A DNA stretch of 64,000 bases. Source: Enchytraeus crypticus (lineage: Eukaryota > Annelida > Clitellata > Enchytraeida > Enchytraeidae). Position numbers and translations under genes: made by a program. The notes beneath the pieces were generated by a model that saw nothing but the letters and a program-made list of their open reading frames with translations, was not told the DNA's origin and did no database searches. Positions 39,306 to 51,133 of this stretch are shown in pieces (within the stretch, counting starts at the first letter, position 1; every line of letters starts with the position of its first letter). The stretch is taken from contig CAJHZI010000192.1 of NCBI GenBank assembly GCA_905160935.1, positions 891,001 to 955,000 of the forward strand. Direction: 5' to 3'.

Positions 39306-42300
39306 TTAGCTGCTGTCGTTAACCACGCTATTAGTGGTAACAGCGTTGACCCTACTATTGCGTGGAGAGTTCTGTACAGAACTATCGAGGTGGTTATTGC
39401 TGCTGCACACGCTCTGGGCACTCTCTTCATCATCATTCCTATGCTCCATCACACAGGCGAGGAAGCCCGAGTCTAGGTGGGTGAGGGAGGCAACGGAAGA
39501 GCGAGTGGACTTGCTTCCAGCCAGACTGGTTCGTCTAGAGCGAGAGGCGACGATTGGAAGAACTGGACCGTGACTCTTGACCAGCTGACCACTCAGAGAG
39601 AGTCCGAGAGAGAGGGAGGCAATGGATGAAAGACCCGATGAAGTGGTCAGCTTCTGTAGTATCACTGTATCGATGTTAAACAGAATTTAAAATGGAAATG
39701 ATCAGAAAGTAATTCTAGTTTCTCAAAATTAACAGAATTTGAAAAAATTACCGCTCTGTGTTGCCTCGCAGTTACAAAGAGTGGAAGACCTAGGAGTTTA
39801 ATTACTGTGTACTGTTTGAAATTATATTACAATATATACATGTAATCCTAATAAAGTTAATTTATTGTGCGTGTTAATTTTACTCATTTTAATTAATTAT
39901 AATGATCTCATAACAACTTTCGGATCAATTGGTATTTCTATTTAATCTTAATACTGCATTGATGTATTAATATGTATGTCTGTATGTGTTCATTATTTTC
40001 CCCATTTTCTTATTTTCATTGGTAACTAGGTGGTCAGCTAGATATGGTGTCATGCACCCTCTTTGGTGGCCTAGTATTTGCATGTATTGGTTTCCCTGAT
40101 CTGTAATTAATTATTATTTTTTATAATTTACTTCTATTAAGTGTGCTGAAATTTATGTAGTGCGTGTTAGAATGTGAATTAAACAGTAATTACATTCTCC
40201 TAATGCGTAGAACGAAACTACTACTGACTTAGAACCTGAGATTAAAACTGATGGTCACAATTTTAAGGCCTGTGTGACCTGTAACGTAACAAAACTCTGA
40301 TGATTGATTGAAACAATACAGCATGTTCCTTAAAATATTAACTCAAAATACAGTATATTTGTCAAGTGTGAGTGTGTATGTTAATGTAATATAGAATGTA
40401 GCAATGGGTCATCTCTATTGGGTATGTTATAGAAGCTACAGATTCAAAGACCAGATCAGTATGATATGATATGATATGATATATAAGTATAATATGATAG
40501 CATATGATGGGTAGCTTCTTGGAACTATGGAAGATTAATCATGTATTGGAGTTTGCTACCAGTTGAAGCTATCAATGGCGAAAATATGATTGATCATGAA
40601 AAGGATTAATAAAAACAGCTGCATGAACCTGTAAAGCAGCCAAAATGAGTCTTAAACAAATATATAAGTGGTTTCCCATCCAGCATTACTACTTTTATTA
40701 TGTTCAGTTCACAGCAAATTTACAACCGAGACGATTATCTTATTCCTTAATAGAATATATCGTAATGAATTATTTCGACGTTGAAGTTGCAATATCATTA
40801 ATCGTAACTACTAAATTATTCATAATGAAATGCATTCAATTGATTTAAATGAAATGGACTAGATATACTAATATAACTAGTGTTTATATGCCAGAAATTT
40901 GCGCAACACATACTTTTGCGGCGTGGTCTGCATATTGCTAATTCATCTTCAGTGGCGCCTTTGTTGAGGCAAAGGTTCTTTAAATTAAGTATCTCTCTCT
41001 GCAAATACACAAATCCATAGTCTTCACTCACACTACCAATTAGTCACTTCGCCCAAAACAAAATATTCAGATTTAAAATGCAACAATTAAAAACAAGATG
41101 TGCAAGTTACCATTTAACAGTCAAAATTTGTATTTCTCGATTTTTCCCTTTATTTCCTCTCTCCCTCTCTCTTTCTCTCTCTCTCTCTTTAGTAAAAAAT
41201 TTCTTTTTTACAAATTAGAACTAAAAACTGACTTTTTTAAATTTATAATTTCGTGAGCCTGTATCTTGCGTAAGAGTTACTCTTAATTTTAATTAAGCCT
41301 GCCTGTAAATGCTTCCGTAAGAATATGTAAAAGAGAAATTCTTCTACTAAGTAATCAGTGTGCCTTTTCCATTCGTCAGGCACGATAATTACATGTACAT
41401 TAAATAAAACAAATAATAATTATAATAATTATAGTTCAATTTAATTCATTCATCTGACGTTATCATAATATTGATTAACGGTGCTTTAACAATAGCAACA
41501 ATAACAACAACAATGGCAACCAACTAACCACGGCGTTAATGAAACACGACGATATGTCGAATTAATAAATTATAATTAATGAGTTAGTAATAACAATAGT
41601 AATTAAGGTTTAACGACCGTTTCCTCTTACAAAGATAATGTAAGGGACGTTAATAAGTAACTAATTTAATATTATTAGTTATTTTTTATTAATGAAGATT
41701 GATAATTATGCCTCTAAATGTATCCGAGAGATAAAGCCATGATTTAAATTACTCAAGAAACATTTAACAAGAACTTTTTCAGTCATTGACATTAAGTCAC
41801 TCTAAGCATTACTACAAGTCGTTCATGGTGATACTTAAGTCGTTCATTTATATTTAAATCATTGTTATTAAAGATCTGTTACCTCTCTCCATTCCACGTC
41901 ATCCGTCAGTCCATCTATTCTCTTCTCCAGTCTACGCCTCGCTCTTCTCTGCAGCTTTATTCTGAACTCCTGGCGCTGCTTTGACGTCACCATTATGCCT
42001 ATACAGTATTACATTGGAACTACATTAGCTTCGTATTCAACTAAAGAGCAACCTTTAAACATGATAACATTCACTGATTTAATCCGCTTTTACAGTGTAA
42101 ATTATCAATAAACCAAATCAGAGTTAAAATTAACTAGCTAAGCTTAACGGCTCTTTATTTCAAACATGCTGTTGGAGATACTACAGCAGGAATTTGAACC
42201 GGAGGCCTCTTGATTCACATGCAAACGGGTTGCTAACACAACCATCAGCCATACTACCTGGTTTATCGCCTGAACACTAATATCAGCGACGGGTTAGCCC

Positions 42301-44432
42301 GTGATTTGGTTCCGCAGCTCCCAGTCAGTCACTGAGCAGGCTATGTCAACTTTGCAAAAAATAGACTTTGTAATTTAAAGTCATAATCTTTAAGAATGTC
42401 TGGTTAATAATAACAGAAAAATTAACACTATAATTAATTAATATAAATGAATACAAATTTGATGGTACAGCAAATGTTATACCATTAAATAGCTACGTCA
42501 TAAAATATTGTGCTTTTTATTAACATTCAAGCATAATATTTCTGCAGAGTTTCAGAATTATTTCATTCAAACTGTAGGTTAAGATTACTGGCATTTATGA
42601 AAGTCAGTTTCAGTATTCAATGGTCACGCAAAATATCATGCTGCACGTCGATTGTCTTCATTATATCTTATAACTGGCGTCGCAAGCACCACAAACTCTT
42701 AACAACAACAACATACTCCAGCGGTTGATTTAACACGAATGGCTTAATTAGACGCATAATGATATGTAGTTCAATAATTGTGCATACAGTATAATACAAA
42801 AACTAGCTATATAAATGAGATTATCCGTTGACCTGGTTACGCTACGCAGTTTTGAATTCATCGTAACTCCCCTTCAATTCGCTGAGACCACACCCACTTC
42901 TGGCCGAATTTTATGCTCTTCATTTTTACTTTAATTATGATATTATTATATTTATGGATAAAACCTCTGATAGAAGCTGTAATAAAATAAATAATTAATA
43001 AAATATTAAAAACACAATAGCATACTTATTTAATAATTATATTATTTATATTCTTATTATTAATAATTAATACCATTAACAATGCGGAGAATCCTCCAGA
43101 GAAGGAAGATGATGATGATGATCAGCGTCTCTTCATTCTGCGTACCCGTGACTCCCTCAACAAACACCAGGTCCATTACAAACGAGGCCACGATTATGAT
43201 TGTGTCGAACACCTTCACATCACAAACGAGGCCACGATTATGATTGTGTCAAATTTTTATACATCACAAACGAGGCCACGATTATGATTGTGTCGAACAC
43301 CTAAACACTATAAACGAGGCCACGATTATGATTGTGTCGAATACCTAAACATTATAAACGAGGCCACGATTATGATTGTGTCGAATACCTAAACACTACA
43401 AACTCTAACCCTAAGAATTTCCAATTTCAGCAAATTTATCGTCTTGATTGAAACAAATGTCAAGGCCAAACAAGATTTAACGTCACTACTCTTCCTCTCT
43501 TTTCTTCAGTGCACTGCCAAGTGGCAGGTTCAAGGTACATATTCATACTCAAAGTCTGCTTTCTCGCTCCATAAGAGCACTCCTTGGATCAACAATTTAA
43601 TCCCTTCACAAAGTCTATACCTTATGTAACATATAGTTTGGGAAAAATGTGGCTTCTGAAGTGGTTTCCCGTTGCCTTAACGTCACTACAACTACGTCAA
43701 ATTATTCACTACGCAGTCCTGCTGATTAATCGCATCACAACGGTTTACGATGTCGTGTAATTTAATTACGCGACGCTTACAAATTACAGTTCAACGACAT
43801 TTACGAAGTCCTATAAAAATCATGTTTCCTGTAATCACAGTTCCTGACCTTATCACTTGAGTGATAAGTGATGGGCTTGAATGAATTTCTCAAGAGATAT
43901 TGACTCGTCCGTGATGATCATTAAACAAATCCAGGGCTCGCATCAACAACATTACTGGCTCAAAAGTTCGTATAAAAACCCTTAGAAAAATTGCTGCGGT
44001 ATTAATCACGTCTAAATCAAGACTGTTGAAGTTAAATCCATAGTAGATTAAGCGAAGATTATCCATTACGTTCTAGCTAGCTTAATGTTTCAAATTGAGT
44101 GCAGTAGAGTTTACTATAATCTCAATCGATATTCCTTTATTCTTTAAGTATCAAAACAAATCTGACGTTCTGAAAGACATGAAATCTTTATTACTAGGTT
44201 GTGAAAATGAATTAGTTCTGTTAAGGAAGCTCAATACAATTGTTCTGCGTTGATTTTGTACTTAAGCCTAATTCTCAAATATTGTTGTAGATTCAGTACA
44301 CTGTTTTTGAAATTGTAGACGTAATCAAAATAGCAATGTAAATAATAATAATAATAATAATAATAGTAATAATAATAGTAATACTAATAAAAATAAAAAT
44401 AAAAATAGTACTGCTACTACTACTACTACTAC

Positions 44433-45769: not shown

Positions 45770-48700
45770 GTGTGTGTGTATGTGTGTGTGTGGTGTGTGA
45801 TTGTCTTAATAGCGTAGGGGTAGCGTCATGAAGTTTTAAATGACAGATCCTGGGTGAAATGAACTCTCGTGGGTTCGAATACCAGCCGCTCTAATCGGAG
45901 AGTAAAATCTCGGACATTCACTGGACTAGTTATACGGAAAATGGTCTAAATTGCCTAAAGGTTTAAACATGTGGTATTAAGAGTGATAGATATCAACACA
46001 GTTGATCATTTCACTATAGTATGTGTTTTAATGTGTATTTACGTTACTTTTGATCTGTCACGGTGTTACACAGATTTCTACAACTCTATTTCGATATTAT
46101 GATGTTTGAAGACTAGTGCGGTAGAATTAAAGGTATATGTATGCGGTTTTCTGGATTTTGGATTTTGAATGGTTTTGGGACCGTTTTGTATTTTGTTCGT
46201 CGGTTTGAATTTTTGAATTTGGTTTAGTAGTGTGATATGGTGTCATTAATGACAATAGAACGCTTATTGTTATTGTTGCTTCTACTGTTGCTGTTATATT
46301 GTTGCTGTTATTGCAAGTAGTAATGTAATTCCAGATGCTCAGAAAAATTAAAATATTTAATTAACTTAAATACTGACCTCCATCTTCTTCTTGAAAAAGT
46401 GTAAACCAACTGCCAATATTTTCACAAACACCTGAAATATAAAAGAATAAGCATTTTATGATTATATTATGTGTAAAATGTGTATATTACATTATATTGA
46501 GTTAGCTTGTTAACTTCAATTGAATATCGAATGGCGCAATTTTACGGAGCGAAACATTATAAAGCGAAATAAAATGTTTTACAAAATGATAGCTATATAA
46601 TAATTGCTCTTTAATAGTTGTGTATCAGTGTAATTTCATTTTTGATCTGCTGATTAATTTACGACGGACGCATATAAGTATTGATAAATATATTTAGTTT
46701 CCTTTAGGTAGTTTTGATTAATTTAAGCCACACCATTTGCCTAAATAGAAACAAATTTTTATCGTGCTCAAATTCAGACCTTCGAGCAATTTTCCAGGAG
46801 AGCCTGGTTTAAATATTTTATCAGTTTTTAATGGCTGTCGCCGTTCTTTCATATTATGCACATGGGTCTCATACTCTGAAAGCTTCGTGGGGAGAGACTT
46901 TGTTAAACAAAGCTGGACACAAGCTTCGAAGAATGCCTCATGTGCCCTAAAACTGTGAACCATGTCTATATGCTCTATCGTCAAATAAATGATCTTCAAA
47001 ATTATAACAACATCAATACAAAGACATCTGCACTTAAAAATTCAAAATTCAGGTTTGTATGTTTGTTCTGTATCCTATGCTTTATATGATTTTATATTTA
47101 AAAATTAAAGAATTTAAAAAATTAATAAAACGTTCTGATAATCTGGAGAATGTTTGAGCAACTATATCTGAAATTTATTATTTTCGGGAAGTTCTATACA
47201 AAGATAACAACTTCTTTCGGCATCAGCTATCAAGTGATGAAAGACGATTTTGAAACGTATTGACAGATTATCGTTTAAGATTCAAGAGGCTCTGACGCGA
47301 AGAATTACAAACAAAACATCAATGTTACTTTTCTCGTTAGAAAGTTTGCAAACAAAATCAACTTGTCAAAAACTGAAACTTGGCCAATATTTACCAGAAT
47401 GACGAACATTCCGAGTATAGTGATACTGATATAATGAAGCACATGCGCTATCTTCAGCAGCTTCTCCGCCTGAGTGTAATGTTTGTAGTACATTCCATCA
47501 TCCAGCTCCACGTGTTTGTTCCTATTCCCGGACCCTATCCCTCGTCGATTTCTGCTCAATTCCACTTCCGTCGTCCCTAATTCATTGAAATTTTCTCTAA
47601 CAACCTCTGCGTTCTTAAACTTCTGGAAAAATAGTTTAACCTTCGATATTTCGGCGGTATCCGGTAACGCCTTTGGGTGAGAAACTCTATCATTCACATG
47701 TCTGTCCAAAGAGTCAATCACGTTACTAGGTGGTGTGGAAGAATGTTCTGGAAGCGAACGAGCTTTCAATAAAGATCTGACAAGTTTTTTACCGACGCTG
47801 CCCTGATTCCTGGAACTTTCGCTGAGGAATAAATCCGGCGGCGGGTTGACGGCGCGTTGAACGTGCGCGGGATTTTCTGACGCAGCGCGACGTCTGCGTC
47901 GAATTCGCCGCTCGCTATCGGAATCATAACCGTTAACGCTTTCTTGAAAAACGTCTTTTTGCCGCGACCGATTGTTTGGTCGCAGAATGTCTAGAATATA
48001 AACGACGTTATCTCCGCTGTAGCCGTCGAGCTCAGCTTCGTATGTAACCTTCAGAAAGTCCATGGCTAGAGATAGATCTGCGGAGGTCTCTTTCGAATGA
48101 CCTGAAGAAATTATAATTAATTCACAGATTAACGTATTTGAATATTTAATTCTTAAATAGTTATTATATTTTAAGTTAAATATGCAATTATCATCATTCA
48201 ATATAAATGAATAATTTATTTTAGTCATTAAAATTGCATATTTTATGCAGGAATTAAAGAATTCTGTGCATTCTACGTAAATCAAATACATCATCATTGA
48301 AGAGTCGGTTCCAAATTCGAACCAAATACCATTGAAATCTGGGACGAAATTTTATTCAGAAAGATAACACCGCTTTAAATTGACCATAAAACTGAACAAT
48401 ATTAGATTTCATAAATGTATCAAAATCTCATAAGATTGTGATTGATGGCAGGTAATTTAAGAAACACTTCACTCTAATTTAATTGGTGCTCGATTCAATC
48501 CCACGATTCACCCGTCGCTGATGTTGCCTTTGAGCAGATTGATAGAAGTACTTAGAATTTCTTAAGAAACAACATTTGTTATTAACATTACCCTTAACAC
48601 CTCAAGTTGTAAATTATTATACTACTGTTTATAGTATTATATAGTATAATACTATACACTATTTAATACTATGAAGAACATTACTGTTGTATATTATTAA

Positions 48701-51133
48701 TATCCTTGTAAAAAGCAACTTCAGGTAGTTTAGGAATCACTATTGTTATTGTTATTATTTTATAACACTATAAACAAGTTGTACAAAGAAAGCTTCGGGG
48801 AACCATTATAATTGCTGTCAAAACATTTATAGAGTAACCTTGATCCACACACACACTGCAATCAGTTGTTAACGGACTCCTGTTTGAGATTTATCTGGAA
48901 TTAGTCCTCTAATAGAGTTCCCATTATTCTCTAGAACACTCCGTCGCTGTATAATTCTTGAGAAATTACATAGAAACCGGAAACCGCGAGACAACAGAAA
49001 ATTGATGCCATAACATTGGTTAGAATGCTAAGTACGGTGCCATAATAGCAGCTTATTCTGTCTATTATGATACAAAGAGTGGCATTGAAAAAGAAAAAAA
49101 TATCAAGACAAAAAATCTACAAAATTAACGGTTTATATTTCGTTGATATACGAGAGAAGCTCTATTTTGTTTTTCATAATTTATGACTCATTTACTAACA
49201 GTTACTTGACGGCTAGGGTGACATTTCGAATGACACACGAGGCGTCTTTAATGTCACCTTCAGACGAATAAACGGAGTAAAAAATCTTACAGACGCATAA
49301 CAATAAAGAGTAGCTAGTCTTAAAACCATAATCCACGAGCCTGTTAAAAAAGTTCATTTTATTTACAGGTCTTAAGGTTTCTTAAAAGATACGATGCTTG
49401 TATTTTCAGCATTAATATTTACGATAGCTTATAGACGTATTATATACTTTAAGAATCGTAGGATAAACAGGCAGAAGCTAAATTTACCATTTTTATCTGC
49501 GAGGTTCATGGACATATCATGTCTACATGTAATCTCTATTTAAATGCATATATTTTTGTTCATTTATTTCATCCTATGCAAACACATACAGTTTACGCAG
49601 TTTTTTACTTTCGCTATCATGCCTAATATGCCTACTAATTTATTGTATCTCGTCAATCGTATTATCTAATATTAAAATCCTCTTTGTATGTAACCAGCGA
49701 AGCAACGGTTCAGAGTCCGACAGAGAATCAGTAAATTTCCACAGCACATGTCATTGCAAACAAACTGCATTCAGTCTTCTCCTAGGTAATTCACCGACCA
49801 ACATAGAAATTTTATATAAATGAAATCGATTTTCTGGCTAGGCCTTCTACTACGTTACAACGATGAAATTCAAGGAAAGTTTCCATTTTAATAAAATTTG
49901 CCATCTTCTTATCTTGCAAAATAAAGTTGAATCTTATTCGATACCATCTGATATTCTAAACTTTAGTCAATTAGCGCAATCGATATACTACATATTAAAA
50001 TAAATTATAATCATTTCATAATATTAACATCAATCGATTAACATCATTATTATTTTAAACATCAATAAATTACCTCTCAAATGTTCTTCTTAGGTCCGAG
50101 GTATATATTCAACTCAGAGTTTGCTTTCACTCTCCATAAAGAACACTCCATTGATCAACAAATTAATTCCTTTACAAAAGACAATGCCTTATCTATATTT
50201 TATATAGTCAATAGCTTGGGAAAAATATGGATTTTAAGGTGGCTTCCCGTTGTTTTCTTCAGTTCATGCTTAGTCACATCTTACAACACGTGCAGTTAAC
50301 GGTTGATCTATTATTAAGTGTTCCGGATACAACACGGGATCAATAAATTATAATTACCCATTAATCTAGACTTAAATCAATTAGTATGACCCCAATATAT
50401 TCTTTAATCAATTAATTACGTCACCTAATCCAAATTAAACAGATTGGATTCAACAACGGTTCACTCAATTAACACCATAACCTAATAATCATTTAATATC
50501 GACCTCGATAGGAACTCACTTTTCATGGCTTGCAGATCCAGCAGTATCTCCCCGACGACAATAGCGGCGTCAAATACGACGAGGATGCAGAGCGCTATCT
50601 GCAGAGGATTGCTGTCGATACACTTCTGCAGCTTCGCTCTCCATCTACAGAAACACAAGCACATTCCTAAAACAATTAGCATGAGCGAGTACCAGAGCAA
50701 ACACATAGTAGCAGATCGTTGAGCCACACTGCGCAGTATCGAATGTTTGTTGAGATGATTGAGAGATTTGCTTCTGTTTGATTGGCGGCGTCGTTCAAAC
50801 AGTGATTATACTGCGATTTGAGAGGAATCTCTCGGATAGTTTGCCACTAAAAAACTGATGATGACGATGTTGAAGATCGGGGAATAGAAATAGTTCAGAA
50901 ATATCGAGACATTTACGTAGCTATAAAAGCTATGAATGGTTAACCAATTTGAGTTCCCTTAGCTGTTAACTTTTCGCCATATTGGCTAGTGTAGAGCTAG
51001 AGTTGTGTCATGTAAAACTGTTTTAGTATCGTAAATTGAATTGTTGATACTATGTAAATTTCAATTTTTGTTGATGTTCTGCTAGCAAATGTTAATATTT
51101 TGTTCGATCTTACAGCATAAATAAGAAGAAGAG

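Follow-up and report, generated by a model that had tools for sequence, protein, structure and literature searches.

An important question raised by this locus is how a gene keeps its reading frame when the edge of one of its exons, splice acceptor included, has been repeated in tandem in the intron that precedes it. The locus lies on the minus strand of a 64,000-nucleotide stretch of Enchytraeus crypticus DNA (the window), in which TRF reports a tandem repeat at 43174-43403 with a period of 44 and 5.2 copies. Its score of 355 (88% matches, 0% indels) is the highest in the window, which has 27 loci with a period of at least 10. The five tandem copies described in a first-pass annotation are therefore real. 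The array is 230 bp long with copy starts at 43174, 43218, 43262, 43306, and 43350, and each unit spans an intron-exon boundary, with 5 nt of intron and 39 nt of exon. With a 44-bp unit it is a minisatellite and not the microsatellite-like expansion it had been called; the start of the S3-S4 coding exon has indeed been copied, as 13 codons (39 nt) and not 11.

Copy 1 (43174..43217, minus strand, as are all features below) comprises the last 5 nt of the intron (TGAAG) and 39 nt from the start of the S3-S4 exon, whose first base is 43212, and its acceptor is presumably the one in use. The remaining copies are intronic, as had been proposed from the sequence. Copies 3 (43262..43305), 4 (43306..43349), and 5 (43350..43393) are decoys that all read TTTAG, with junctions at 43300, 43344, and 43388, while copy 2 (43218..43261) reads TATAA, has lost the acceptor AG, and holds the motif TTTGAC. 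The splice signal is thus kept in three of the four intronic copies, and the claim that the acceptor was copied five times stands for the unit but not for the AG, which is present in only four of the five. On the intron side the array ends in a partial copy of 10 bp (GTTTGTAGTG, 43394..43403) that resembles the exonic end of the unit (GTTTGTAATG in copy 1).

The five copies differ pairwise at 1 to 8 of their 44 bases. Copies 4 and 5 differ at a single base, which is compatible with recent turnover, and copy 2 is the most divergent; its substitutions cluster at the acceptor (43218-43229) and possibly represent one templated event. Only 10 columns are variable, and 27 others form an uninterrupted invariant run, with a shuffle p of 0.00012 (linear) or 0.00026 (circular) that presupposes evenly spread changes. 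Such a run could result either from constraint or from homogenisation by the coding copy. A 351-bp query containing the array matched only its own locus in the assembly (524 Mb, 802 contigs), in a search that ignores very common words. Folding of the array strand was not unusually stable (z -1.28, with 10 of 100 shuffles equally good), and neither Rfam nor tRNA scanning of the window gave a match.

Five minus-strand exons can be linked through GT-AG introns so that one frame stays open throughout, and the intron phases match only when the copy-1 acceptor is used. This chain consists of the exons that could be joined, the 5' end of the gene lying outside the model: an S1 exon (50520..50805, with a GTGAGT donor, its own 5' end beyond the model), an S2 exon with a long S1-S2 insertion (47395..48101), a 54-nt S2-S3 linker exon (46378..46431, flanked by TTTCAG and GTCAGT), the S3-S4 exon (43074..43212, 139 nt, starting in phase 0 and ending in phase 1), fourth of the five where the first-pass annotation had counted it as exon 6, and a C-terminal exon after S4 (41883..41998). 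Copies 2 to 5 are housed in the 3165-nt intron between the linker and S3-S4 exons.

Within the open frame 43248-43063, no AG other than that of copy 1 precedes the conserved FDTI. Of 30 homologous proteins, the FD motif gave an anchor in 29, and 26 of these have a residue at position -1, 25 times Q and once E. Upstream of this residue similarity vanishes, a pattern to be expected when prokaryotic gene prediction runs past ...CAG| into an intron. In the single E case (P0026), linker-like sequence runs on into S3, and that gene probably is without this intron, having either lost it or never gained it. All 10 paralogues in the genome have an intron at the identical base, ending in CAG in eight and TAG in two, with the AAG of the window as the sole departure. 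The position of the junction in homologues and paralogues alike identifies copy 1 as the true start of the S3-S4 exon, in agreement with the initial proposal.

An exon started at 43300, 43344, or 43388 runs into a stop after 20 codons in every case, which bears out the earlier statement that the upstream acceptors are out of frame. The further statement that these acceptors are nearer to the 3' splice-site consensus than that of copy 1 is correct to a slight degree, with scores of 0.56, -0.08, and 1.19, respectively, against -0.66 for copy 1, on a weight matrix for which a gap of one or two bits carries little weight. Elsewhere in the gene, acceptor scores are 3.25, 4.83, and -0.91, the last being that of the C-terminal exon and lower than copy 1. 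Pyrimidines occupy 7 of the 13 positions before copy 1, inside the range of the ten paralogues (6 to 11). Both of these comparisons speak against any special weakness of copy 1.

The closest known counterparts are the lancelet "mirages", minisatellite-like tandem repeats of an intron-exon boundary in which the AG/GT signals are kept, described in Adh3, the globins BflGb6 and BflGb9, troponin C, and PGBD5 (PMC3087553, PMC3902484). The former paper's account gives regular splicing by RT-PCR and haplotypes with 6 and 3 units and cites somatic instability at Adh3 (PMC3087553), and the latter makes the same remark on splicing for Adh, troponin C, and PGBD5 (PMC3902484). The window array shares with these a boundary-spanning unit, intronic copies with splice signals, and recurrence at other boundaries, and its 44-bp unit falls within the 10-72 bp given for the Adh3 mirage; it differs in being known from the sequence of one assembly, whereas copy-number polymorphism and RT-PCR are available for lancelets. 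A literature search on "mirage" arrays returned only these two lancelet papers as relevant by title, and we do not claim that such arrays are absent outside lancelets. Minisatellites at exon-intron boundaries also occur in human segmental duplications, with a mean unit of 30 bp and about 4 copies as summarised in PMC2812944, but these lie in recently duplicated paralogues and in some of them transcripts back new introns, whereas the window array is known from DNA. In the potato RdRp gene, a tandem duplication that likewise crossed an intron-exon boundary is described as the source of an intron (PMC4974935), with the difference that the new intron there is in use.

Our preferred reading, to which we would give a probability of about 0.75, is that the array is a minisatellite of the mirage type that is most likely near-neutral, with the acceptor of copy 1 in main or exclusive use. 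The 44-bp segment across this boundary, with 5 nt of intron and 39 nt of S3-S4 exon, would have been duplicated in tandem, the first time probably by slippage between near-identical 10-mers (GTTTGTARTG), the intron-side one being the partial copy and the other the exonic end of the unit; these may represent microhomology. Expansion to five copies would then have followed, with growth toward the intron side. Because the array would have grown on that side, the frame would be preserved as long as the last acceptor, that of copy 1, is chosen, and copies 2 to 5 would be removed with the intron, with low-level mis-splicing into nonproductive RNA as an optional addition. Since copy 5, which adjoins the old intron, reads TTTAG, we infer that this was probably the older acceptor and that TGAAG and TATAA are derived. 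Three considerations weigh against a near-neutral mirage. The slightly better-scoring decoys would be favoured if the acceptor were found by scanning from a branch point upstream, the substitutions are distributed more unevenly (the 27-column run) than plain neutral drift accounts for, and the lancelet precedent for undisturbed splicing may not transfer to this animal.

A genome search with the S3-S4 exon gave 13 matches, of which 11 at E 3.2e-7 or better were kept and two weak ones were omitted (one at E 0.125 with a stop, one at E 1.42). Copies of the exon's own edge were found in the adjacent intron for 3 of these 11 paralogous exons, those of the window and of C213 and C166, each exon being compared with its surroundings in a stretch of 1.5 kb for L015-L017 and 3.1 kb for the other paralogues, so that copies farther out would escape. 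The C213 exon (L012 in G000:C213, ~283348-283740), near which S1, S2, and linker exons are recognisable, has acceptor-edge copies at -251, -177, and -75 in a TTGA-rich intron, spaced 74, 102, and 75 bp apart. All three share the acceptor tgattgatag|, and they reach stops after 16, 16, and 23 codons. On C166 (L016 in G000:C166) there is one donor-edge copy, the exon end followed by GGTACGTCAA, which lies 387 bp downstream in the intron (at about +504, counted from the first base of the exon). In front of the L010 exon, a match of 14 nt was too weak (E 0.033) to be counted as a copied edge.

The decoys of the window and of C213 arose independently, since they resemble their own exon and not that of the other locus. 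Identity of decoy to own exon is 0.87-0.97 in the window and 0.90 and 0.92 in C213 (the third, at 0.38 ungapped, is shifted by one inserted base), as against 0.62-0.69 and 0.56-0.59, respectively, to the exon of the other locus, the two S3-S4 exons themselves being 63% identical over 139 nt. None of four paralogous linker exons has a copied edge, nor do the further exons of the window gene that were checked. In five 10-kb samples of the genome, arrays with a period of at least 10 make up 2.7, 7.0, 7.3, 7.7, and 12.9% of bases, and four of the five contain an array scoring 341-921. These samples are rich in minisatellites, and a high background of them is therefore the likely cause of the copied edges. 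The G+C content of the five samples is 0.335-0.367, below that of Branchiostoma at about 0.41. The window array is one among several exon edges copied in this genome, and this recurrence among paralogous S3-S4 exons is new here. The arrangement had been called unusual, which is too strong given that several lancelet genes have it and apparently splice normally, and that two paralogues have copied edges too.

Copied exon edges of this kind are natural experiments in 3' splice-site choice, in which near-identical AGs are offered serially and only one of them keeps the frame. By itself, the window array adds modestly to the lancelet findings; a genome in which 3 of 11 related exons carry such edges could reveal how an AG is chosen, whether these arrays lead to nonproductive splicing, and whether new introns are seeded by them.

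The stops reached from the decoys could also be the purpose of the array. Choice of copy 3, 4, or 5, as the first-pass annotation had suggested, would give a premature stop and hence NMD or a truncated protein, and the array would in this way tune the amount of functional protein. All three intact window decoys and all three C213 edges do end in stops, and the window decoys score slightly above copy 1. However, stops are likely in any AT-rich intron that is read through, and such dead ends are expected without selection. The copies are also poor in branch points: four yUnAy motifs occur in or close to the array, and only the TTTGAC of copy 2 sits 18-40 nt before a first AG, and that AG is the one of copy 1. 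In addition, the lancelet mirages are described in their reports as leaving splicing undisturbed. We consider such a switch unlikely. An extended form of the idea holds that copied edges are repeatedly made genome-wide and that two of the 11 family members independently gained out-of-frame decoys at the homologous junction, where these act as copy-number-dependent brakes on productive splicing; this is a speculation with a slender chance of being right.

The TTTGAC motif of copy 2 contains a candidate branch point (TTGAC, 43248..43252, with the A at 43249), created by changes private to that copy and located 36 nt before the copy-1 acceptor, where it may function. Copy 2 is alone in lacking the AG and alone in having TTTGAC, which could mean that the splice architecture is evolving: the old branch point would have been moved ~176 nt upstream by the array, and selection would have reshaped copy 2 so that the first AG to follow a usable branch point was still that of copy 1. 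When a unit like copy 3 receives six random substitutions, both changes arise together in 3.3% of trials (the AG is lost in 25.7% and the motif gained in 14.2%), but this simulation was designed after the changes in copy 2 had been seen, and the clustering of those changes may mean that they are a single event. The C213 paralogue moreover breaks the rule: the stretch that separates its true acceptor from the last decoy contains several AGs. Selection of this kind seems rather improbable to us.

The array is known from a single assembly, and one lancelet mirage was, according to its authors, aberrantly assembled in the draft (PMC3087553), which raises the matter of a false expansion. The copies nevertheless differ from one another at as many as 8 positions, the array measures just 230 bp within a contig of 2.19 Mb, and structures of the same type occur in two paralogues, so that an assembly artefact is very improbable. 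Least probable of all is an early stage of intron or exon gain, with a copy serving as a new exon or the array as a new intron: copies 3 to 5 do read TTTAG|GTATTC or TTTAG|GTGTTC, and models for such gains exist (PMC3087553, PMC4974935), but by the donor consensus GTATTC and GTGTTC are poor donors, and 44 is not divisible by 3. A ratchet based on donor-like use of AG|GT was set aside on the same consensus.

Regarding the protein, a joined S1-S4 peptide from which the long S1-S2 insertion was excluded matches the Hv1 chains 5oqk_A (E 1.8e-18) and 3wkv_A (E 1.7e-16) and Pfam Ion_trans (PF00520, 34.4 bits with a cut-off of 25). A Pfam search of nine window ORFs, among them the S1 and S3-S4 exons singly, found only a retroelement-type endonuclease. 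The selectivity-filter Asp of S1 is retained (VVFDA aligned to VVLDA). The insertion in the S1-S2 region (47395-48101) amounts to ~200 residues and includes a basic, low-complexity stretch; the loops of Hv1 are usually short. The S4 segment reads LLWRILR (LxWRxxR), in which Leu replaces the first arginine, and the RxWRxxR signature of Hv1 (PMC8804609) is not matched. Among proteins consisting of a voltage sensor, TMEM266 (HVRP1) also has three arginines in S4 (PMC6392501). The window gene resembles these proteins in its S1-S4 homology to Hv1 and its S1 Asp, and differs from them in the LxWRxxR of its S4. It appears to be intact and to encode an Hv1-like voltage sensor, as first proposed; the functional channel that had been assumed is uncertain, as is proton-channel identity, because S4 lacks the first Hv1 arginine. 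The same Leu is found in all 11 paralogues in the genome, an Hv1-like voltage-sensor family, and all 30 homologous ORFs taken from metagenome collections have LLWRILR.
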